Source of the DNA: Gammaproteobacteria bacterium
GTDB taxonomy: Bacteria > Pseudomonadota > Gammaproteobacteria > Burkholderiales > Thiobacillaceae
Direction: 5' to 3'
Length of the DNA stretch: 64,000 bases
Assembly (NCBI GenBank): GCA_018820765.1
Contig: JAHJNN010000017.1
Coordinates: 558,001-622,000, forward strand
The translations under genes and the position numbers were made by a program. Below the pieces are notes generated by a model. The model searched no databases, was not told the DNA's origin, and saw only the letters and a list, made by a program, of their open reading frames with translations. Positions 1,365 through 14,248 of the stretch are shown here, piece by piece (positions within the stretch are counted from its first letter, which is position 1; every line of letters begins with the position of its first letter).

Positions 1365-1382
1365 GTCAGCATGCTCACATGC

Positions 1383-1410
1383 AAAAAGCCCGGTTTTGCC
1401 GGGCTTTTTT
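1383..1410 (+). terminator. Rho-independent terminator after the PhnD-rhodanese gene
   Basis: AAAAAGCCCGG and CCGGGCTTTTTT form a GC-rich stem with a short TTTTG loop and a T run, 18 bases after the stop codon. The A run on the other side could let it work in both directions. Confidence 0.85.
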
Positions 1411-1538
1411 ATGCTCGCTCCTCGCAATGCCGATTTCTAAGCGATAAATTCTCATCTAAACAACATTGGTTTACGAAAAGCCCGCGGCAAAACTTGATAA
1501 AACTTGATGTTAGATGGCCAATGTATATAATCCGCCGC

Positions 1539-2663
1539 ATGGAAAAAGTTCTGAACTCTAGTGCTATCCAAAAAGCGCTCACAGAACGTGGTATGTCTCA
1601 GGGCAAGCTTGCCCAAGCCATAGGAATTACCCCACAAGCAGTTACCAACTGGTTGAAGGGAAAAGATTTCCCCCGTCCGGCCTCGCTTCTCAAACTTGCT
1701 ACTACCTTAAGTCTTCCGTTTGACCAGCTTGTAAAAGCTGGAGACACCGGGCGACCTGTCATCGCGTACCGGAAGAAAGCAAACGTTAAAACGACCTCAG
1801 CACATCTCGCTAAGGCTGAAGGCATTGGCATGCTGCTGAAACCGTTGGTGGCTCACCTGCCTGAGTTGCAGGCTTTGCGCACGTTAATTACCTCTCCTTC
1901 AACTGAATACGACAAACTCCAGACCGTCGTATCGCAAACCCGTATCAGGCTTGGTCTCGGTGAAACCGCTGTACTGGGGTACGAACACTTAATTGGAGAA
2001 TTCAAGGATTGCGGCGCGGTTCTAGCGCCGGTTCTCTGGGGCCATAAGGGTAATCACGAAAACGCATTGCACATCCGCCTACCTAAGGAAGACGTAACTT
2101 TTATCTTCCTCAATCTTGATACGCATCTAGAGGACTTTAAGTTCTGGATGGCTCATGAACTAGCCCATGTGTTGACGCCTGAGCTTTCTGGAACCAACGA
2201 GGGTGAGGATTTTGCCGATGCCCTCGCTGGGGCGTTGCTGTTTCCAAAGGCCTGCGCAGAAGCGGCTTATCGCACCGCCACTCAAGACACGAAGCCAGAT
2301 CGAGTGATTCAAACTCTGATGAAACAAGCGAATGCCCACATGATCTCGCTGAATACCGTGTATCAACAGGTTCAGCAATACGCCAAGGCAACGCAGTTGC
2401 CCTCATTGTCACTCGATGAAAAGGCAATCCATGCGTTGCGCAACAGTCTGCGTGGCCCATTAGTCAGCGAAGCTTTGTTCGATCCAATGCCACCATCACC
2501 CCAGCGCTACATAGCGGCTTGCGAGAACGCCTTCCAGACGGGGTTTTTCCATGCCCTGAAGCACATGATTGTTGAAAGTGGCACCGGGGCTCCCTACATT
2601 CAACAAGTTCTGGATACTTCGCTACAGGATGCTATGGCACTCCACGAGGCATTGCGCCATTGA
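1539..2663 (+). CDS. XRE helix-turn-helix regulator fused to an ImmA/IrrE zinc peptidase
   Basis: 374 residues from the ATG at 1539; the frame stays open upstream to 1371, but that part is the terminator and AT-rich leader. Residues about 8-65 are an XRE/Cro DNA-binding domain (ALTERGMSQGKLAQAIGITP, then NWLKGK). Residues about 140-290 are an ImmA/IrrE-type metallopeptidase: HELAH at 206-210 supplies the zinc histidines and catalytic Glu, and EGEDFADALAGALLFP carries the likely third ligand. In known ImmA/IrrE proteins this domain cleaves a repressor, so this protein may act as switch and sensor in one chain. Its stop overlaps the start of the PIN gene (TTGA), implying translational coupling. 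Codon use is AT-richer than in the flanking core genes, suggesting acquisition. Confidence 0.85.
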   Translation: MEKVLNSSAIQKALTERGMSQGKLAQAIGITPQAVTNWLKGKDFPRPASLLKLATTLSLPFDQLVKAGDTGRPVIAYRKKANVKTTSAHLAKAEGIGMLLKPLVAHLPELQALRTLITSPSTEYDKLQTVVSQTRIRLGLGETAVLGYEHLIGEFKDCGAVLAPVLWGHKGNHENALHIRLPKEDVTFIFLNLDTHLEDFKFWMAHELAHVLTPELSGTNEGEDFADALAGALLFPKACAEAAYRTATQDTKPDRVIQTLMKQANAHMISLNTVYQQVQQYAKATQLPSLSLDEKAIHALRNSLRGPLVSEALFDPMPPSPQRYIAACENAFQTGFFHALKHMIVESGTGAPYIQQVLDTSLQDAMALHEALRH

Positions 2664-3250
2664 TCCTGGTGCTGCTTGATACCAACGCTTATCTGAGGTT
2701 GGCCAAGCGCATCCGCCCATTGCTGGGAGTTCCATTCGGGCAAAAAGAGTACCTGCCCACCATCCTGAAGCAGGTCGAGGACGAGGTTCACAAGAGCGCT
2801 CGTCTCAAATTCAGCTTTCCCTGGTTCACTGATCCTGAGCTGACTGCCGAGCGGCTCGCCAAACAAATACGACTAGGCAAAGAAGAGCGGGCACAAATTG
2901 AGGCAGCAGCGAGCGTGCTGCGTGCCCATATCCTAGCGGACCCTCAGAGCTACACCACCCAAGGCCGTTCGCCACCTTCGCCGACAGACTGTTTTCTGCT
3001 TGCGTTCGGACAAGTTCGCCCAGCCATAGTGGTGACAGACGACCTTGGCATGCACAAACTCGCCGGGGATTTCGATATCGACATCTGGCATGGCCACGAA
3101 CTCCTGAAAAAAATGCTCAGTGCTAGGGTTATTGAGAACGATCTCGTTCGGGAAATCTTCGCTGCGCTTGAAAACAATGGCGACCTGCCGCGCACTTGGC
3201 TGGAAGTCAAACACTCCGAATTCAAAAAGCTGTTCGGGCCAAAAGCATAG
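2660..3250 (+). CDS. PIN-domain putative ribonuclease (toxin-like)
   Basis: 196 residues, starting with TTG at 2660 in a 4-base overlap with the XRE-peptidase gene. The N-terminus has the PIN signature (VLLDTNAYLRL, Asp7 and Asn9). Further acidic positions fit the Mg2+ site: Glu40 or Glu42, Asp110 in SPTDCFLL, and Asp127/128 in VVTDDLG. PIN proteins of the VapC type cut tRNA or rRNA. Coupling to an XRE-ImmA/IrrE protein is a recurring arrangement in which the first gene probably restrains the second. At 196 residues it is longer than classical VapC (about 130), with an extra C-terminal helical tail. The RNA target cannot be read from sequence. A role as a defence effector rather than a maintenance toxin is possible. 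Confidence 0.75.
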   Translation: MILVLLDTNAYLRLAKRIRPLLGVPFGQKEYLPTILKQVEDEVHKSARLKFSFPWFTDPELTAERLAKQIRLGKEERAQIEAAASVLRAHILADPQSYTTQGRSPPSPTDCFLLAFGQVRPAIVVTDDLGMHKLAGDFDIDIWHGHELLKKMLSARVIENDLVREIFAALENNGDLPRTWLEVKHSEFKKLFGPKA

Positions 3251-3297
3251 CTGTGTATCAACTTGTTGGGCACTTAGAGAATGTGGCCTAAGCGGCG

Positions 3298-4107
3298 ATG
3301 AAGAAACTGAACGAAGCCAATCTCAAAGTTGGCGACATTATTTTGACGACGACTTCACTTCCCAAAAGCAAGGGAATTCGGTTCGCGACGAAGAGCGATA
3401 TTTCCCATGCGATGGTGTATGTGGAGAGCCATTCGGTCATTGATTCAACCGGAGATGGCGTTCAGTCTCGCAACACGCAGCGGCTGTTTTGGGAAGACCA
3501 CCTTGCCGTCCATGTATTGCGTCTTAGAGAGGGGCTGACGGAAGAGGAGACGCAGGAAATTACGTCCTACGTAAGGGGTCGGATCGGCACCCAATACGCG
3601 ACCATGGAGGCCTTCCGTTCCGTAACGCGTGGCCCAAAGCGCAAGACCAGAAAGCAATTCTGCTCACGTTTGGTTGCGCAGGCCTATGCCAGCGCCGGCA
3701 TACAGCTCGCGCAATCATCCGACTACTGCACACCGGAAATGCTCAAAAATAGCAGCCGTTTGTGCAAGGTCTCAAATGCCACGCGACTTATTTCCGCCCG
3801 CGAAATTAATGCGATCAACGCTGTCTTCGACATCCCGGCGCTGATGCGCGACGTGACGAACGCAGTGCTCAACGGGGCGAGGGAGAAAGACAAGAACATC
3901 CAGCATTTGAATGACATTGACGAGCACCTTAGAACACATCCGGAAAATGACGCGTACTTTGCAAAGCTTTTCAAGGAGTCTGGGGTATCTAACCGTATGG
4001 TCGAAGGAGTGCGAGAAAAATCCTTGGCATTACGATCTCGCGCTGATGGAATCGAGTGCATTACCCGGGTCAGAGAAGCTATCGTATTGCGAGCAACTCG
4101 TCTTTGA
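3298..4107 (+). CDS. Permuted papain-fold (YiiX/NlpC-P60-like) protein, probably frameshifted near its end
   Basis: 269 residues as read. Residues 1-150 resemble permuted papain-fold amidases/peptidases: KVGDIILTT start, His37 in DISHAMVYVE and Cys122 in FCSRLVAQAYASAG, the expected order (His before Cys) for the permuted C92-like group. Substrates in this superfamily include peptidoglycan peptides and lipid or protein amides; none can be assigned here. After about residue 240 the reading looks artificial, while the frame starting at 3911 becomes protein-like. Removing one A from the A5 run at 4016-4020 joins the two frames into one chain of about 421 residues (VREN-PWHYD junction). So either the gene carries a one-base insertion, or it uses +1 frameshifting, or two genes overlap by 197 bases. 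Confidence 0.6.
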   Translation: MKKLNEANLKVGDIILTTTSLPKSKGIRFATKSDISHAMVYVESHSVIDSTGDGVQSRNTQRLFWEDHLAVHVLRLREGLTEEETQEITSYVRGRIGTQYATMEAFRSVTRGPKRKTRKQFCSRLVAQAYASAGIQLAQSSDYCTPEMLKNSSRLCKVSNATRLISAREINAINAVFDIPALMRDVTNAVLNGAREKDKNIQHLNDIDEHLRTHPENDAYFAKLFKESGVSNRMVEGVREKSLALRSRADGIECITRVREAIVLRATRL

Positions 4108-4564
4108 TGAGGAAAAGGGATTTCAGCGCTACGGCGTCAATCATGCCGGATACACAATCTTCGCCGAGCAATTTGGGCTTGAAACCTTTCGCCTGTTGAA
4201 GGACCTTTATCAGACATTGGCGGACCTTCATATGCAACGCAGAAGCATTGCCGAAACTTGGCTAAGCCGACATGCCCCCTCTTCATTGCTGCCACTGAAG
4301 AAGGGTCAACCCTTAGAGCCTCATTCCCCTGAATGGTTTGCAGCGCTCGAAGCCTGGAATTTCCCGCAGGCAGCGCATGTGCGTGAGGTCGTCAAGCTTG
4401 CGAAACGTACAGATGTTTGTTCGATATGCGGTGATGATCCGACACGAGACTACCGTGTGGTTGGCCAAAGAATCCCGCTTGGTGCAGTCCTCACGTTGAG
4501 ACTTTGCAATGACTGCTGGGAGATACGCAGAGGGATGTACAAGGAAGCCCTATCTCTCCTTTAG
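3911..4564 (+). CDS. Zinc-ribbon-like C-terminal part continuing the papain-fold gene in another frame
   Basis: 217 residues as an open frame, of which roughly residues 35-217 (from about 4013) look like real protein. Four cysteines in two pairs, CSIC at 170-173 and CNDC at 199-202, suggest a zinc-binding knuckle. The middle is helical (FGLETFRLLKDLYQTLADLHMQRRSIAETWL). No family recognised. It lacks a convincing ribosome-binding site at 3911 and overlaps the preceding frame by 197 bases, so I infer it is the displaced C-terminus of the papain-fold gene rather than an independent gene. It lies in the low-GC accessory block. Confidence 0.5.
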   Translation: MTLTSTLEHIRKMTRTLQSFSRSLGYLTVWSKECEKNPWHYDLALMESSALPGSEKLSYCEQLVFDEEKGFQRYGVNHAGYTIFAEQFGLETFRLLKDLYQTLADLHMQRRSIAETWLSRHAPSSLLPLKKGQPLEPHSPEWFAALEAWNFPQAAHVREVVKLAKRTDVCSICGDDPTRDYRVVGQRIPLGAVLTLRLCNDCWEIRRGMYKEALSLL

Positions 4565-4864
4565 CTTCGGCCGACTCTGCCGCTACGCCAAGGAAAATGT
4601 TTCCGCGCCCGTCAAGACTAACGCCGTGCCGTTTTTCTCTTCACCTGGGTCAGCGGATTGATGCGACCCGATAAACAGTACGTCATACGCGTTACGTGAT
4701 GCTGGTAAAGGTCACCGTACTCAATAAACCGATCGACGAGCCTAGCCAAGGCCTCGCAGGAGTTTTTCAACAGAATCAACCCGTAGCTGTCTTTCGAGTT
4801 CCAGTCGAGGACGACAGCAATGCAGCGAGGCAGTCGCCCACCACGGCGAACCAGGCGTCTTGGG
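4565..4864. other. Non-genic 300-base stretch with a possible coding remnant on the minus strand
   Basis: Between the convergent zinc-ribbon reading and the stop of the giant NTPase gene. On the minus strand an open frame from 4902 down to 4618 gives protein-like text (for example DSYGLILLKNSCEALARLV), starting inside the 3' end of the NTPase gene in another frame. It has no credible start and could be a decayed extension of the NTPase gene or of a lost neighbour. No clear terminator was found. Confidence 0.3.
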
Positions 4865-7800
4865 CTAGGAAGGCAATCGAATCTCGCGGAACGCCTCACC
4901 AAGCTGAAGCGCCGTACTTCGCCGGTCGCCCATGTCGACTAGCATGTCGAGGATCCGCAGGAACTTCTGAGCCAAAGCCAGCGTCATCGGCGCGTCACGA
5001 TGTGCGAAGTGCTGCACCAGCTCTGCGACGCGCGCCGGAATGAACGTTCCATGCCAACCCTTTAGATTGTCGGGCCCGTCGCCGATAATCGCGAGCACTT
5101 GGTCCGCGAAGGCTTCGGCTGGGTAGTTCGTCCGAGCTCGCTCACAGAGCGTCAAGAACGAGCCCATCACTGAAGCAGCCCATCCGCCCGCGCGAACGAA
5201 ACGATCGATCAAGGGCAGGATGTGGCTGATTTCGGACCAGTCGCCATTGACGTAGCGAGCGGCCAAGCTCGCATGTTCGACTGAGACAAACATCAACGTG
5301 CGAACAAGCTCGGGTTGATCGAAACCTGAAAACTTTCCGCTCCGGTAGGCCTCGCGCTTGAAGGCAGAGGCCTGGAGAAGTCGCCCAAGACAAAGGTCAA
5401 GCGTCGCAACTGCGTCGGCTGGAACGACCGGCGCATCGTACACGTAGGCGCAGACGTAGGTGCTCGCGAATGGAGAGAGGAGGGCCCAGCAATTGTCGCC
5501 CTCGAGCGCCAGAATCGGGTCGAGGAAACGGGCCTGGAACTCGCCAAGTGGAAGAAGTCCGGCCACCCGGCCGAGCGCTGACCCTAGAGCGTGAGTCCAT
5601 TCGAAAATGCGGGCCGCCGAACGATCTCGACGTCCAGGCTTAACCCAAGGCGGCGCATTCTTCTGGTTGGTCCAGTTGAGAACGTCGGCGAGGAAGTCGA
5701 GGAGCGCACTTCTCGCGCTACTGCTCAGAGCCTCATCAAATGGGATGCGCTTGAGAATTTCGGCGGCCTGCTTTGAGTGCCAGAAGACACCCGGTTCACC
5801 CCACACCTCAGCCGCATCGGCTGCATCCTCCGCGTCGTACTCTTCATAGCTTTGACGCCCACGCCGACCCTTTCCGGGTTCGACCTTCACCCAGGCTGGA
5901 GGCGGTAACGGAAGGGCGGCCCATCCGCTTCCATTCTCATAGAACGCAAGCGCCGCGTCGACCGCCGCTTGCGCTTCACTTGATGAGTGGAGTGCTTCTC
6001 CGTGTTGACGGAGTTGATCACGTGGCCGCGGTGGAACGTGGCAGAGCGAAAATGCCAAGATCAGCGTAGCCCAAGTCAGCTTGGGGTCCTTGGACCAAAG
6101 CTTGCAGGCTTCTTCGAGCGCGGCTAATGAAACGACTTCAAGTGGGTGCGCAATCAGCCCAAGGAGGTCGCGAGCCGCGCCGCGTTCCGCCGTACCTTCG
6201 CGGAGATCCGCTGCGAGGCCTCGCGCCACGTAGATCGTCTGGTGCCACGGGATGACGGAACCAGGCGACCACATCAGGTCGGGTTTTTCTGGTAGACGGA
6301 TCGCGCGCCCAAGGACGATACGAGCCCACTCAAGGTCTTCTTGAGTGCGCCCCTCTCGGAAGTTGAGCGCGATGGCGGCGGTCGCGGCGACTGCACCTCG
6401 ACGCATACCCATGAGCTCTTCTTCGTTCTCGCCGTTTGAGCGCTCGAACAAGTCGCTGGCATCCGCTTTCCTAGCCAACGCGATGGCATCATCGACCGTG
6501 TAGGTGTCGCTGAGTTTCTTCTCTTCGAAGGACTTGGATGCCCATGTCCAAAGGCTCATCTGACTAAGATGCTGAGAGGCCTCTTCGGCCCTAGCGATGT
6601 TCTCAGGCTTCGCGGCAGAGGGGCTGACATGGACAATCGCAACCTGGTCTGAATCCTCTTTGGCACGGTAGGCCTGATAGTTTTTCGGGTCCGCCAACTC
6701 GGCATATTCAAGCGCCTGAGCTGTGAGGTACTCCCGCGCCTCCGGAATGTTGCGTTGCTCTTCGAACTGGTATGGGAGATCGGTTTTGAAATTGAGGATC
6801 GCTTCGCGGGCTCGGTCGCGGATCGGCTCCGTCGCAAAGACGAACCCGGGCACCATCCAACTAAGCTCTGTCTTACGGGCTAGGCGGGCATTTGCTGCTT
6901 GAATCGCCTCAATGTGCGGCTGGTCGGTGCGAGACGTAAAACCGATTAGGCTAGCAGTCGGCGAGATGTCTTGCGCCCATCGGTTATGGTCTGCCGCCAA
7001 CAGGCGTTGTGAGGTGAAGAGCGGAAACGTCGCTTCGGACACCGTCTCGGTGTGGAGTGCAAGCATCGACGCGATGCCCAGGATGGCGATGCACTCGTTC
7101 CCCTCGACGATTTTCTGGATCAGCTCGTCAACGGGCCGGCCGCGCGCAAGCTCGGCAAAGCACCACTCCTCAAGCGCCATAAATCCGCAGCCGATGGCAT
7201 TGGGCGCCCACGTCGACCGAAACCAAAGATACTCCCGGTCGGTGCCCCAGAACCTTTGGGCGCCCCAGGGAAATGACAGTTCAAGCGGAATGGGGCTGCC
7301 GCCACGGTCACGAGAGTGACGATGCAGTTGTCGCCACGCAGTCATCGCATGATTGCAGAGTTCTCGAAGGAGCCGTAGTGCCTCGCCTGGTGATGATTGG
7401 AAAAGCGAGTGAAAGGGCTCTCGGAGTGGCGAAGGAGGCCAGAAGCTTCGGTGGTCGTCGTTGATCGATAGCTCTTCCCAGTCGTGGTGGCTGAAATCGC
7501 CGATGATTCGCAGTGAAGGCCCGACAGAAAGCAAACTGTTTTCTTGACGCGTGCGTTCAGCTTCCGACTTGGCCAAGACAGCCTTGCGCCACTCTGCTGC
7601 GCGCCGGAGTTCCTGCTCTTCTCGGAAGACCTGGTCGTCTGGAAGCTCCTCTCGCAGGAACGCTAGTGAAAGCTCGACGACTGACTGGGGCAGCGACTGG
7701 GCAAGGACGGGTGAGTAGGCGATGACGTCGTGAAACGCATCGTCTCGGATGCGTTCTGAGTTGGTGACCCGTTGCAAGTAGTCGGCTGTAAGGGTCGGTT

Positions 7801-10252
7801 CTGCTCGCGACGATCTTAAGAGGAGTTGACCAAGGGATTTTCGAAAAGCGCCGAGATCGGGCACCTTATTCCAGAACTCAGAGTTCTCGTCAGGCCCATC
7901 GGCGTTACTGATCGCGTCGATGACGGCAAGCCAGACAGCGCATTGCTGCAGCAGAGCGCGAGACGTCGGATTGGGAAAGTCTGCGAGGGCGTTTTGCCAG
8001 ACCTCGAAGATAGCGACAATCTCTGGATAGAGTCTCTGCGGTATGGCAGAAATGTGCCGGAGTATGAAGTCGATGAGGCGACGCCACGCGGCGAAGTCGG
8101 AAGGCCAACCGAGAAGATCAGCGAACCATTGGCGTTGCTCCTGTGGAAGTGCACCCGCGAGGATGGTCGCATTCGGGGTGGTCTTCTCAGCCTGAAACCA
8201 GACGAGAGTTTTCCTGAAAAGGCGGAAGTCGTCGGTAAAGACGGCCGTCGCGAATTGGTCCTCATCAACTTCGAACCTCGCAGTTCCGAGGGGACCGACC
8301 AACCACGCTCGCAGCCATTGTGATCTAAGGCCCGAACCCTCGGCTTGGGCGAGGTACGCCGGCCAGTCTTTTACCTGCGCATACTCCCATTGGGAGACGA
8401 GTTCGACGACGCGTGCGACCGCCGGCGGCTCGCCGCAGGCCTTGATCTCTTCCATCCATTGGACCCCGCGATCGGCTAGGACATGGAAGAAGGCCCATTC
8501 GAAGAAGATATCGTGAGCGAAGCGGACAGAGATTCCATCGCGAGCATTTTGGAGTATGCCGTCTGATCTTAGGTCGTCGATGTGTGCGACCGAGGTGAGT
8601 TGGCTAAGGCCAATCGGCTGGCTAAGGTGCCGGGCACGAACACGTGCCAAGTCGAGCAGCGCGCGTTGGCGTTCAATCGCGTTTTGGCCGGTCTCGTTGT
8701 AGCCGCCCCGCCGCCACCAATTCTCGATAAGATCAACTTCAGACTGGGGAACGAATGTCGGGGCGCTGGGGTTGGCCACGTAACTCTGGTTCAGCACCTT
8801 CGCAAAAAAGGGGCGTCGGACGATCTCTTGCACCTGGGCTGATCCAAACAGAAGTGGCCTCAGGTGTGGTTTGGAATTTGCGAGCGTCTCGGCATCTTCG
8901 TCACTCAGCTGATCAACCCGAAGCGCCTCGACCTTCAGGACATCAAGGAAGTCGCCCAACCAATTGCGAAGCACTTCAATGCCGGTGTCGCGAAGGGAGA
9001 CGACGACGCGCCAGTTATCGAGAAGCGGCGACTCCACGATGGCGCGGATCACGTCGAGGATTACAGGCTGGTGTTCTTTCTCGACGCGATCAATCGCATC
9101 AATGAAGAAAATGGGAGTTCCGGCGGCCCCGACCTCCACGAGAAGTTGCTCCAGGGGAACTCCCGAGAGACCCTGCGAGGCCGCGTAGCTGATCCAGCTG
9201 GTGCCTTCGAGCTGTTCCGCTTTGAGGAAAAGGATCGGCCCGCGTTCTAGCGCGCACTGGACCGCTCGCCTCACCACGACTGATTTGCCACTTCCCGGCA
9301 GGCCGCGGACCTGAACGACACGGGCCGTGGCGAGCTTGGCATCCAGGTTCTCAAGGAGCGAGGTTCGGTCGAGCCTCGTTCCGCCAACATCGTCCGGAAT
9401 GAGGTTCGCGTAGCTCTTTGCGAGCTCCGTCAACTTGTCGAGGTCGAGGCGAAAGGAGGTCGCGCCACGAAGCCGTGCGACCGATGAGATCGAGCGCACA
9501 AGCCGTGCGCGATCAAATTGCCCGGATTTGCCGGCTGATGCACGGGCTAGCTGAACGGCCCGCGACCAAATGAGTGGTGCCTTAGCTGCGTCATCGGGCG
9601 CCAGGCAATCTCGGATGCGATTAATGGCTTCAGGGGGATCAGTGGCGCCTTCGCGAAGGAAATCGAATTGGATGAGGACGAAGTGCGCAAAGAACTGATG
9701 CACTTCTTCACTCGTGCACGGCGTCTCCTTCGCCTCTTCCTCCAGTAGGGCAGCGACGTCGTTCTTGACCGCTTTGATGTCGTCGCTGGCGCTGCCACCC
9801 TGTGCAAAGCGAGCGTCGAAATGGTCTGTCGTCAGACTTTCACGGGCCCAATCGCAGAGGGTCTTGAGTGCTCGTTCTTTGGCAGGGGATATCGTGCCAA
9901 CTGCTGCCCCGTAGCGGTCGGTGTTGATGCGGAAACCAGGTTTTTTGAGGGTGTACCAACTGTCGCGAATGATGTCGCGAAAGTCGATGTTCGTTTCCGC
10001 CTTGCTGATCGTTAGCGAACGCTTCACCTGGAGGCTAAGGCGAGCGGGGTTCTTTGTAGCGTCTTCAAAATCAACGATCACATCATCGAGCGGTTCGCCG
10101 AAGTCGCGCTGCTGAACCGATACACAGACAACGGTTCGATCATCGATGCCGGGTGCATATGCCTCGGCTAGCAGCGCGGCGAGATAGAACGCAGCTGCGT
10201 CGCCCTCAAAGGTGAAGCCCTCGCCGCCGGCGAGTTCAGGTGATTGTGGCAT
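4865..10252 (-). CDS. Giant nuclease-like/STAND NTPase protein, Avs-like antiphage defence candidate
   Basis: 1795 residues. Residues about 10-110 resemble a PD-(D/E)xK nuclease of the Cap4/DUF4297 kind: GEGFTFEGDAAAFYLAALL, then acidic DDVIVDF (Asp56/57) and the LQVKRS strand with Gln75-x-Lys77. Residues about 300-450 are a P-loop NTPase: GLPGSGKS Walker A at 317-324, IFFIDAID Walker B at 381-388, and an arginine-bearing VVVSLRDTG strand. A helical segment with FAHDIFFEWAFF (about 576-587) is typical of STAND/NACHT proteins. The remaining 1200 residues are mostly helical and probably form the sensor and scaffold. This order (nuclease, STAND NTPase, long C-terminal sensor) matches Avs-type proteins that recognise phage proteins and then degrade DNA. 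Assignment to a particular Avs family is not possible here. It reads alone, towards the papain-fold gene. Confidence 0.75.
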   Translation of the reverse strand: MPQSPELAGGEGFTFEGDAAAFYLAALLAEAYAPGIDDRTVVCVSVQQRDFGEPLDDVIVDFEDATKNPARLSLQVKRSLTISKAETNIDFRDIIRDSWYTLKKPGFRINTDRYGAAVGTISPAKERALKTLCDWARESLTTDHFDARFAQGGSASDDIKAVKNDVAALLEEEAKETPCTSEEVHQFFAHFVLIQFDFLREGATDPPEAINRIRDCLAPDDAAKAPLIWSRAVQLARASAGKSGQFDRARLVRSISSVARLRGATSFRLDLDKLTELAKSYANLIPDDVGGTRLDRTSLLENLDAKLATARVVQVRGLPGSGKSVVVRRAVQCALERGPILFLKAEQLEGTSWISYAASQGLSGVPLEQLLVEVGAAGTPIFFIDAIDRVEKEHQPVILDVIRAIVESPLLDNWRVVVSLRDTGIEVLRNWLGDFLDVLKVEALRVDQLSDEDAETLANSKPHLRPLLFGSAQVQEIVRRPFFAKVLNQSYVANPSAPTFVPQSEVDLIENWWRRGGYNETGQNAIERQRALLDLARVRARHLSQPIGLSQLTSVAHIDDLRSDGILQNARDGISVRFAHDIFFEWAFFHVLADRGVQWMEEIKACGEPPAVARVVELVSQWEYAQVKDWPAYLAQAEGSGLRSQWLRAWLVGPLGTARFEVDEDQFATAVFTDDFRLFRKTLVWFQAEKTTPNATILAGALPQEQRQWFADLLGWPSDFAAWRRLIDFILRHISAIPQRLYPEIVAIFEVWQNALADFPNPTSRALLQQCAVWLAVIDAISNADGPDENSEFWNKVPDLGAFRKSLGQLLLRSSRAEPTLTADYLQRVTNSERIRDDAFHDVIAYSPVLAQSLPQSVVELSLAFLREELPDDQVFREEQELRRAAEWRKAVLAKSEAERTRQENSLLSVGPSLRIIGDFSHHDWEELSINDDHRSFWPPSPLREPFHSLFQSSPGEALRLLRELCNHAMTAWRQLHRHSRDRGGSPIPLELSFPWGAQRFWGTDREYLWFRSTWAPNAIGCGFMALEEWCFAELARGRPVDELIQKIVEGNECIAILGIASMLALHTETVSEATFPLFTSQRLLAADHNRWAQDISPTASLIGFTSRTDQPHIEAIQAANARLARKTELSWMVPGFVFATEPIRDRAREAILNFKTDLPYQFEEQRNIPEAREYLTAQALEYAELADPKNYQAYRAKEDSDQVAIVHVSPSAAKPENIARAEEASQHLSQMSLWTWASKSFEEKKLSDTYTVDDAIALARKADASDLFERSNGENEEELMGMRRGAVAATAAIALNFREGRTQEDLEWARIVLGRAIRLPEKPDLMWSPGSVIPWHQTIYVARGLAADLREGTAERGAARDLLGLIAHPLEVVSLAALEEACKLWSKDPKLTWATLILAFSLCHVPPRPRDQLRQHGEALHSSSEAQAAVDAALAFYENGSGWAALPLPPPAWVKVEPGKGRRGRQSYEEYDAEDAADAAEVWGEPGVFWHSKQAAEILKRIPFDEALSSSARSALLDFLADVLNWTNQKNAPPWVKPGRRDRSAARIFEWTHALGSALGRVAGLLPLGEFQARFLDPILALEGDNCWALLSPFASTYVCAYVYDAPVVPADAVATLDLCLGRLLQASAFKREAYRSGKFSGFDQPELVRTLMFVSVEHASLAARYVNGDWSEISHILPLIDRFVRAGGWAASVMGSFLTLCERARTNYPAEAFADQVLAIIGDGPDNLKGWHGTFIPARVAELVQHFAHRDAPMTLALAQKFLRILDMLVDMGDRRSTALQLGEAFREIRLPS

Positions 10253-10435
10253 CGGTAGCTTGAAAAATTTGTTCAGCAGCCATCCGTTGAGGGGCTGAGC
10301 GGCCGGTTGTAGGAAATTGTACTTATTTGCATCCTACCTTGAAGCTGCCACATCCGACCGCTCAGGAGCCGTGAGCGGACACGCTTGCTGTCACCCGGAA
10401 ACACAAAATTTCGGACACGCTCCATTCCTAATTAC
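10253..10435. other. Intergenic segment between gyrB and the accessory block, with an imperfect inverted repeat
   Basis: No gene seen. CTGAGCGGCCGG near 10296 and CCGACCGCTCAG near 10356 form an imperfect inverted repeat (one mismatch) about 60 bases apart. It may be a scar of a mobile element or a weak hairpin. It marks the right boundary of the low-GC block. Confidence 0.35.
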
Positions 10436-10466
10436 AAAAAAAGCCAACCGATGAGGTTGGCTTTTC
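10436..10466 (-). terminator. Rho-independent terminator of gyrB
   Basis: Read on the minus strand, AAAAGCCAACC, a CTCAT loop and GGTTGGCTTTTTTT form a stem with a T run about 60 bases past the gyrB stop. Confidence 0.85.
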
Positions 10467-10529
10467 ATCTTGTCCCACGAAATCTAAAGATTTGGGAAAA
10501 ATCTAGATTTCAATGGGATCCTACAAGCT

Positions 10530-13133
<2,604 letters not shown>

Positions 13134-13144
13134 TTATGCACGTG

Positions 13145-14248
13145 TCAGATGCGCATCGGCATCACGACGTACTTGAAGCCGGCTTCGGCGTCGCTGGTCA
13201 GCAGCATGCTGCTGTTGGCGTCGCCCAGCGACAGCGTGATTTCGTCGGTATTGACGGCGCCGAGGCCGTCCAGCAGGTAGGTGACGTTGAAGCCGACGTC
13301 CAGCGGATCGCCGTTGTAGCTGACTTCGATTTCGTCGGCGGCTTCTTCCTGTTCGTTGTTGTTGCAGACGATGCCGAGCGTGTTCTCGCTCATCACCAGG
13401 CGCACGCCGCGGAATTTCTCGTTCGACAGGATCGCGGCGCGCTGCAGCGCCTGCGTCACGCTCTGGCGATTGGCCTTGAGGTGGCGCGGCTGGTTGGCCG
13501 GGATCACGCGCTGGTAGTCGGGGAATTTGCCGTCGACCACCTTGGTCACCAGCTCAGTGCCGGGCAGGGTGATGGTGACCTGGTTGGCGCCGATGCGCAG
13601 CTCGACCGCGTCGTCCGTGTCGGAAAGCAGCTTGGACAGCTCCATCACGGTCTTGCGCGGGATGATGACTTCGCGCGCTTCGGCTTCGGTTTCCAGTTCG
13701 GTTTCGGCATAGCTCAGCCGGTGGCCGTCGGTGGCCACCACGCGCAACTGTTTGCCGCCCAGCACCAGCAGCATACCGTTGAGGTAATAGCGGATGTCCT
13801 GGCTGGCCATGGCGAACTGCACCAGCTGCAACAGACGCTTCAGCGTCTTCTGCGGCAGGCGGATCGCTTCGCCCAGACCGGCGCCGGTTTCGACGCGCGG
13901 GAAGTCGGCGGCCGGCAACGTCTGCAGGGTGAAGCGCGACTTGCCGGCGCTGACCACGACCTGGCTGTCCTTGGTGTCGAGCTTGACCTTGGCGGCGTCG
14001 GGCAGGGCGCGCACGATGTCGAACAGCTTGCGCGCGGCGATGGTGATGGCGAAGTCTTCGCCTGCCTGCGCGTCGAGCTGGGTGCTGACCTGCAACTCCA
14101 GGTCGGTGGCCAGCACGGTGAGCTTGTCGCCTTTTTTCTCCAGCAGCAGGTTCGACAGGATGGGCAGGGTATGGCGGCGCTCAACCACGCCAACCACAGC
14201 CGAGAGGGACGCCAGAAGGGCGTTGCGTTCGCTTTGTATTAATAGCAT
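13145..14248 (-). CDS. dnaN: DNA polymerase III beta subunit (sliding clamp)
   Basis: 367 residues, the normal length for the three-domain clamp that encircles DNA and tethers polymerase III. Recognisable stretches are the start MLLIQSERNALLASLSAVVGVVERR, the HTLPILSNLLL segment, YYLNGMLL, RVVATDGHRLSYAE, and the C-terminal KYVVMPMRI typical of DnaN. It lies between dnaA and gyrB on the same strand. The 180-base gap to dnaA is long, AT-rich and contains DnaA-box sequences, so dnaN probably has its own promoter there. Confidence 0.97.
   Translation of the reverse strand: MLLIQSERNALLASLSAVVGVVERRHTLPILSNLLLEKKGDKLTVLATDLELQVSTQLDAQAGEDFAITIAARKLFDIVRALPDAAKVKLDTKDSQVVVSAGKSRFTLQTLPAADFPRVETGAGLGEAIRLPQKTLKRLLQLVQFAMASQDIRYYLNGMLLVLGGKQLRVVATDGHRLSYAETELETEAEAREVIIPRKTVMELSKLLSDTDDAVELRIGANQVTITLPGTELVTKVVDGKFPDYQRVIPANQPRHLKANRQSVTQALQRAAILSNEKFRGVRLVMSENTLGIVCNNNEQEEAADEIEVSYNGDPLDVGFNVTYLLDGLGAVNTDEITLSLGDANSSMLLTSDAEAGFKYVVMPMRI

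Follow-up and report, generated by a model that had tools for sequence, protein, structure and literature searches.

What kind of protein is encoded by the long gene that adjoins gyrB in this genome of the Thiobacillaceae, and what might it do for the cell? The gene lies near one end of the window, i.e., the whole 64,000-nucleotide stretch of DNA analyzed here. An initial annotation described an Avs-like protein with a nuclease head, a STAND NTPase and a long C-terminal sensor. The 1795-residue reading frame on which it was based is real; it starts with ATG and lies on the minus strand, which had been left unstated. The plus strand of the same interval is crowded with stops, and relatives align to the window protein from end to end, the first residues after the start codon included. 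Upstream, on the same strand, lie gyrB (10530-13007), which is indeed the adjoining gene, at a distance of 277 bp, and dnaN (13145-14248). No promoter-like site was found in a search upstream of the gene. The site scan placed a terminator-like hairpin between gyrB and the gene, in a region where such sites are not over-represented (3 observed, against a mean of 7.0 in shuffles).

4865..10252, minus strand: whole gene of the 1795-aa nuclease-STAND-sensor protein (open reading frame from ATG, and its translation)
10438..10466, minus strand: terminator-like hairpin between gyrB and this gene (site scan)

The sequence motifs that had been read from the translation are present at the positions claimed: Asp57, Gln75-x-Lys77, the Walker A motif at 317-324, the Walker-B-like strand at 381-388 (Asp385, Asp388) and the helical motif FAHDIFFEWAFF at 578-589. 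The approximately 1200 mostly helical residues C-terminal to the last motif are seen in the AlphaFold2 model.

How widespread and how well preserved is this gene? In genome contigs, a profile scan detected relatives at 63 loci, with identities reaching 88%. At 44 of these loci, a reading frame longer than 1600 aa has stayed open (in L056, counted here, a second piece follows past the stop); among the other 19, 5 run off the contig, and the remaining 14 are either interrupted or short, in some cases close to a contig end. The titles of the 63 loci name Pseudomonadota (three classes), Sulfuricurvum, Desulfovibrio, Nitrospirota, Nitrospinota, a Chlorobiaceae bin and an Actinomycetes bin, and these taxon labels include bins, which can contain foreign contigs. 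By tblastn, 23 plasmid records match, 6 of them with one place spanning at least 80% of the protein, and the plasmid relatives, where annotated, are called NACHT, ATP-binding or hypothetical proteins. Viral contigs contributed six loci (the best at 62%), and a tblastn search of a phage collection with the window protein at 1e-5 gave no match. Within its own family, the gene was matched in only 2 of 117 genomes, one match being a mere fragment. At locus L002 (G088:C107:32597-32845), in a congener, there is an 83-residue stretch only, 75% identical and with one internal stop.

For conservation, we aligned 53 long rows, among them that of the window, all taken from frames longer than 1600 aa. Glu16, Asp57, Gln75 and Lys77 are invariant in all 52 rows that have these positions (L007 is without the protein start), and Lys323, Asp385, Arg421, His580 and Asp581 are invariant in 53/53 rows. 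The conservation of Asp57 is partly due to how the rows were selected, because the scan pattern that found most of the rows contained this residue; Gln75 and Lys77 lie outside the pattern. The conservation of the motifs is far beyond chance. Against seven close relatives, the dN/dS ratio is 0.14-0.19 overall and does not exceed 0.25 in any of four parts of the protein; the window gene is under purifying selection. These values bear directly on the idea that the window copy is decayed and non-functional. Because 14 of the 63 loci are interrupted or short, some near contig ends, decay may be common in the family, and one congener has only a fragment. The window frame, however, is open throughout and its key residues are kept, and with the low dN/dS ratio in every part, we regard a decayed window copy as very improbable.

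The protein can be divided into three parts, the first of which is the N-terminal head.

9473..10252, minus strand: residues 1-260, predicted Cap4-type PD-(D/E)xK nuclease effector (PADLOC profile and model)
10082..10084, minus strand: Asp57 of the PLDDV motif, predicted catalytic (52/52 rows; inside the search pattern)
10022..10030, minus strand: Gln75-x-Lys77, predicted catalytic (each in 52/52 rows)

The profile check of the N-terminus that had been suggested for Cap4/Mrr-type nucleases gave a divided result. The PADLOC profile DUF626_VIII, the best of the PADLOC top three, matches residues 3-242 with 2e-23; with 474 positions, this model matches the head and is too short to contain the switch and sensor of the window protein. 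In contrast, the nuclease alignment searched against the PDB returned five rows, with Cap4 in none of them, and no Pfam nuclease model matched the window protein. In the model of residues 1-640, which comprises the head and the switch (mean pLDDT 90.2, pTM 0.86), VIA aligned the head with Cap4 (6wam; Z 13.8, rmsd 4.2, 200 residues aligned), the correspondence being model 5-260 to chain 14-226 of a predicted model in which the head is part of 1-640. LmuA (9hr5, Z 13.1) and HamA (8zue, Z 12.7) follow. The whole-chain VIA rows of Avs4 (8dgf; model 5-640, Z 17.7, rmsd 17.8) and Avs3 (8dgc; model 1-501, Z 13.3, rmsd 16.5) start inside the head as well. The type of the head therefore rests on the Cap4, LmuA and HamA rows together with the absence of a sequence match to Avs4: when the nuclease alignment was compared by hhalign with residues 1-180 of the Avs4 protein L084, the probability was 0.1%, and the Avs4 profile matches to the window protein begin only at profile positions 188-192. 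The D...QxK catalytic residues of a Cap4-type nuclease are present (Asp57, Gln75 and Lys77, in 52/52 rows), and the head is a predicted PD-(D/E)xK nuclease of the Cap4 type.

The head shares its nuclease fold with Cap4 of CBASS and with the nuclease parts of LmuA of Lamassu and HamA of Hachiman. Unlike these, it is fused to a STAND switch and a sensor; the SAVED domain of CBASS Cap4 is absent, and residues 264-640 fold as NACHT instead (VIA). The head of Avs4 is of the Mrr type, and Avs3 bears a Cap4-type head as well. As a query on its own, the head (residues 1-260) matches in 16 plasmid records. Among them is an Agrobacterium pAt plasmid, where a 561-aa protein (L104:5998-7683, plus strand) has the same nuclease head and is too short for the switch and sensor described here; its gene adjoins one for a trypsin-like protease, and the protein gave no match to PADLOC or Pfam at 1e-5.

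The second part is the nucleotide-binding switch.

8453..9463, minus strand: residues 264-600, STAND/NACHT NTPase switch (VIA, Foldseek, NCBIfam)
9281..9304, minus strand: Walker A, residues 317-324 (Gly317, Gly320, Gly322 and Lys323 in 53/53 rows)
9089..9112, minus strand: Walker-B-like strand, residues 381-388 (Asp385 in 53/53 rows, Asp388 in 52/53)
8486..8521, minus strand: FxHDIffEW motif, residues 578-589 (His580, Asp581 and Trp586 in 53/53 rows)

Is this part a genuine STAND NTPase? A NACHT-type fold, a Walker A motif and a Walker-B-like strand, which mark this superfamily, are all found, by VIA, by Foldseek and as invariant motifs. In VIA, approximately residues 264-640 resemble the animal NLRs NLRC4 (Z 23.6), NLRP9 (22.1), NLRP3 (21.7) and NOD2 (20.4). 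Foldseek with residues 1-640 placed Avs4 (8dgf) first (1.4e-12), Avs3 (8dgc) next (7.7e-10) and animal NLRs thereafter. The STAND/NACHT assignment made earlier is recovered by the Avs4 profiles and the NLR folds; in Pfam, it appears only among four sub-threshold matches, the best of which are AAA_16 and NACHT. The likeness to NLRC4, NLRP3 and NOD2 is confined to the NACHT switch fold, as the window protein, unlike the animal proteins, has a nuclease head and an Avs4-type helical sensor. Its FxHDIffEW motif aligns with the HDIYEEW motif of Avs4, and we take it to be perhaps the counterpart of the MHD motif of NLRs. A solved 1523-aa "AAA family ATPase" (PDB 9n00/9n01/9yix) matches residues 202-637 by profile with 3e-9.

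The third and largest part is the C-terminal sensor.

4868..8452, minus strand: residues 601-1795, Avs4-type helical-repeat sensor (model, Foldseek, VIA, hhalign)
6290..7477, minus strand: residues ~926-1321, sensor stretch that resembles Avs4 directly by sequence (PADLOC, NCBIfam)

The initial annotation could match this region to no named Avs family and suggested that it may be a new branch; the lack of a match is not supported, as the sensor is recognizably of the Avs4 type by profile and by fold. The suggested structure prediction of the C-terminus (residues 597-1795; mean pLDDT 86.5, pTM 0.72) puts Avs4 far ahead. Foldseek ranks 8dgf first with 6.0e-18 and a TM score by query of 0.59-0.60, and the next protein reaches only 2.2e-5. 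VIA aligns 970 residues of the sensor with 8dgf (model 1-1191 to chain 482-1587) with a Z of 24.2, an rmsd of 6.4 and 14% identity, as compared to a Z of 11.9 for the next row. Most of the remaining rows are eukaryotic proteins built of helical repeats, for instance importins, an arrangement that is common. Avs2 and Avs3 (8dgc included) are absent among the best 50 sensor rows listed by Foldseek, which says nothing about a difference from them.

With the sensor alone as the query, a search of 369 sampled genomes of the class found three matches: the window gene's own genome; G906, where the N-terminus is by eye of the same kind; and G891, where the match is a 278-aa piece. The same search found 18 plasmid records, three of them E. 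coli plasmids whose genes resembling Avs4 match at 22% (two annotated avs4), and five loci on viral contigs. Apart from Avs4 itself, no different head was seen on such a sensor among the few matches examined from genomes, plasmids and viral contigs.

How close is the protein to Avs4 as a whole? First, the Avs4 profiles recognize it. The PADLOC Avs4 profile matches the window protein best over residues 293-588 (6.1e-20), and the NCBIfam Avs4 model (NF041815) over 293-593 (9.7e-28). Searched in the genome, the PADLOC profile found the switch (1.5e-11) and also the sensor (profile positions 756-1155, E 3.1e-8). The NCBIfam model matches 6/6 family members scanned. In the relative L013, it matches residues 926-1321. 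Second, PDB profile searches with the family returned Avs4 (8dgf) first for both halves (9.1e-13 and 1.9e-16). Third, we compared the family with L084, an Avs4 protein of 1570 aa whose best plasmid matches are annotated avs4. The N-terminal alignment matches it with a hhalign probability of 97.4% (1.2e-11), starting only at window residue 261, and the sensor alignment with 97.5% (8.6e-12; 832 columns, 18% identity). Considering these probabilities against the 0.1% obtained for the nuclease, what the protein shares with Avs4 by sequence is the switch and the sensor, not the head. Finally, the distance is considerable: the equivalog cut-off of the NCBIfam model is 1500 bits, and the window protein scores 96 bits, below it, as compared to 2088 for the control Avs4 (L084).

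The layout of Avs proteins, with an effector, a central STAND switch and a large C-terminal sensor in one chain, is present according to the models and fold matches, and the Avs-like architecture first read from the sequence is borne out by the PADLOC and NCBIfam profiles, Foldseek and VIA. The window protein is a Cap4-headed relative of Avs4, since its sensor and switch match Avs4, while its head is dissimilar by sequence and Cap4-like by model. It resembles Avs4 (AVAST type 4; PDB 8dgf; NF041815; PADLOC PDLC02169) in its STAND switch and C-terminal sensor, and differs from it in a head whose sequence shows no detectable likeness to the N-terminus of Avs4 and in being ~225 residues longer than L084. 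Terminase-bound Avs3 (8dgc) is the second Foldseek family for residues 1-640, but the sensor fits Avs4 best. The PADLOC candidate system PDC-M54A matches weakly over residues 11-591 (5.7e-11, 38.6 bits), ending before the sensor, and no partner gene, which this candidate would also call for, is widely common among the relatives. The unusual points of the protein are that its switch and sensor, of the Avs4 type, are paired with a predicted head of the Cap4 type, and that it is distant from the named Avs4. A search of publication titles, most subscription journals and preprints being outside its scope, found none naming this pairing. The 2022 study of Avs proteins by Gao may already describe Cap4-headed relatives of Avs4.

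How did the gene come to lie beside gyrB? It is carried by an insert that is absent from one congener.

1414..10528, strand not applicable: low-GC insert bearing the 1795-aa gene (absent from the congener G082; GC)

The 9115-bp insert has a GC content of 0.563, as compared to 0.654 for window positions 10529-64000, and lies below all 89 same-size windows of that part (range 0.625-0.678). The insert lies between gyrB and the side of topA, at a site that is variable. We compared this site among six of the congeners with a gyrB match (G053, G063, G081, G082, G103 and G106). In G082, the flanking matches are 24 bp apart, i.e., the site is empty. The others have non-matching sequence of ~2.0 kb (G053), ~7.4 kb (G063), ~6.8 kb (G081), ~6.8 kb (G106) and ~5.4 kb (G103). 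In G103, it encodes a type IIG restriction enzyme-methyltransferase, a C5 cytosine methylase and Vsr, and in G063, G081 and G106 it holds, by eye, a single common cluster of a regulator and a transporter (in G081 a sodium:sulfate symporter by Pfam), not defense genes. As empty, restriction-modification and transporter contents are all found, the site is variable yet not reserved for defense.

The same insert contains plus-strand genes of its own: a gene for an HTH and ImmA/IrrE-type peptidase protein (1371-2663; Pfam HTH_3 and Peptidase_M78; PADLOC RmrA, 7.5e-15), an overlapping 196-aa reading frame (2660-3250) whose start is PIN-like by eye and which has no Pfam match, and a gene for a C92-type peptidase (3298-4107). 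The plus-strand genes at 1371-4564 are possibly a second defense or toxin-antitoxin module.

In the tree, the window copy groups with copies from Burkholderia and Caballeronia, among gammaproteobacterial ones; an alphaproteobacterial bin and Nitrosomonas halophila stand next to this group. Trees of this kind are made uncertain by long branches and bins, and the several class changes seen here do not prove transfer. The synonymous divergence of the window copy is 0.39 from the copy in the alphaproteobacterial bin and 0.49 from that in Parahaliea, values so low that the sequences speak for a recent transfer of the gene.

These observations decide against a housekeeping or metabolic AAA/STAND regulator that stands next to gyrB by chance. 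The position beside gyrB and dnaN in the source genome would suit such a regulator, but it is contradicted by the patchy distribution (2/117 genomes of the family, one a fragment), the low-GC insert missing from a congener, the lack of widely common neighbors among the relatives and the invariant nuclease residues. We rejected a housekeeping ATPase on the distribution, the insert and the nuclease head, and consider this explanation hardly credible. The absence of a nuclease or STAND fold, or a best match to a housekeeping ATPase, was looked for and is not the case.

Does the protein need a partner? We clustered the reading frames around the gene in 76 loci and the window flank. The largest cluster besides the gene itself covers nine loci, and the recurring clusters look by eye like integrases, transposases and widespread metabolic or regulatory genes, whose distances from the gene vary. 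A multi-gene system with a fixed partner was rejected, as no neighbor gene is widely common in this set. PADLOC was run on 140 of 169 picked reading frames of 31 relatives (frames of up to 900 aa, within limits on count and size). The matches are scattered (AbiEii, AbiGi, reverse transcriptase, type II methyltransferase, Vsr and more generic ones) and not clearly above a control of 58 ordinary reading frames of the window genome, which also gave matches (PDC-S01, PDC-S07, mad3, DpdF and AriA). Phage_integrase was matched by 7 of the 140. The exception to the varied surroundings is a 1553-1554-aa reading frame directly downstream of the gene in the distant relatives L008, L053 (same species) and L059, at L008:13320-17984, L053:13320-17984 and L059:13173-17834, all on the plus strand. 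By eye, this frame has an Mrr-like nuclease start and a Walker A motif; the L008 copy gave no match to PADLOC, Pfam or NCBIfam at 1e-5. The distant relative and the downstream frame may represent two STAND-like receptors encoded in tandem.

Some relatives near integrase or conjugative-element genes, and the 23 plasmid records with a match, could also suggest a STAND protein that answers a non-phage cue, such as the entry of plasmid or conjugative DNA or a stress of the host, and whose nuclease limits mobile elements. The solved structure that Foldseek places first for both halves is, however, a sensor of a phage portal, and we hold a non-phage cue to be improbable.

We propose that the window protein is an intracellular antiphage receptor that works on its own and belongs to the Avs group of bacterial NLR-like STAND proteins, combining a Cap4-type head with a STAND switch and an Avs4-type sensor. 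We put the probability of this reading at about 0.8. The sensor would bind a phage protein that is conserved, with the portal as the likeliest candidate. The ATP-bound subunits of the receptor would then assemble, and the clustered nuclease heads would be switched on to cut DNA of both phage and host, which would stop the infection and probably the cell. Phage defense, assembly and DNA cleavage by the window protein are likely, by analogy with its Avs relatives.

Which phage protein would be sensed? The portal is the least certain part of the proposal, and on the analogy with Avs4 we give it about an even chance. One article reports that Avs4 recognizes the portal and Avs1-3 the terminase (PMC12724215); another gives portal and terminase as the triggers of Avs1-4 and JADA as that of Avs5 (PMC12931631). 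Since the similarity to Avs4 is low (14-18%) and the score far below the cut-off, the trigger may have changed: the architecture and the DNA-cutting output would be the same, and the retained Avs4 fold would detect a different conserved phage protein. In line with this, the protein is ~200 residues longer than Avs4, residues 1201-1500 rank with the most variable stretches of the family when the overall identity is below 45%, and other Avs types sense terminase (Avs1-3) or JADA (Avs5). Against it, the likeness to the portal-bound Avs4 extends over almost all of the sensor and far exceeds that of the other PDB rows. We consider a trigger other than the portal a serious contender, with somewhat less than even odds. 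In a broader form of this idea, the proteins would make up a widespread mobile family whose switch and sensor, of the Avs4 type, were combined with an unrelated head of the Cap4 type and later shifted to a new conserved phage protein as the trigger; this is put forward tentatively and is less likely than not.

What would the receptor mean for the family? Because the window protein reaches 96 bits against a cut-off of 1500, Cap4-headed relatives of Avs4 probably go unnamed in annotation, and the family is large, its members being found in several phyla. If the proposed reading is true, an Avs4-type sensor works with a different nuclease head, which would offer a clean test of modularity in bacterial NLR-like receptors. 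Exchanging heads and sensors between two solved frameworks (8dgf and 6wam) could separate recognition from killing.
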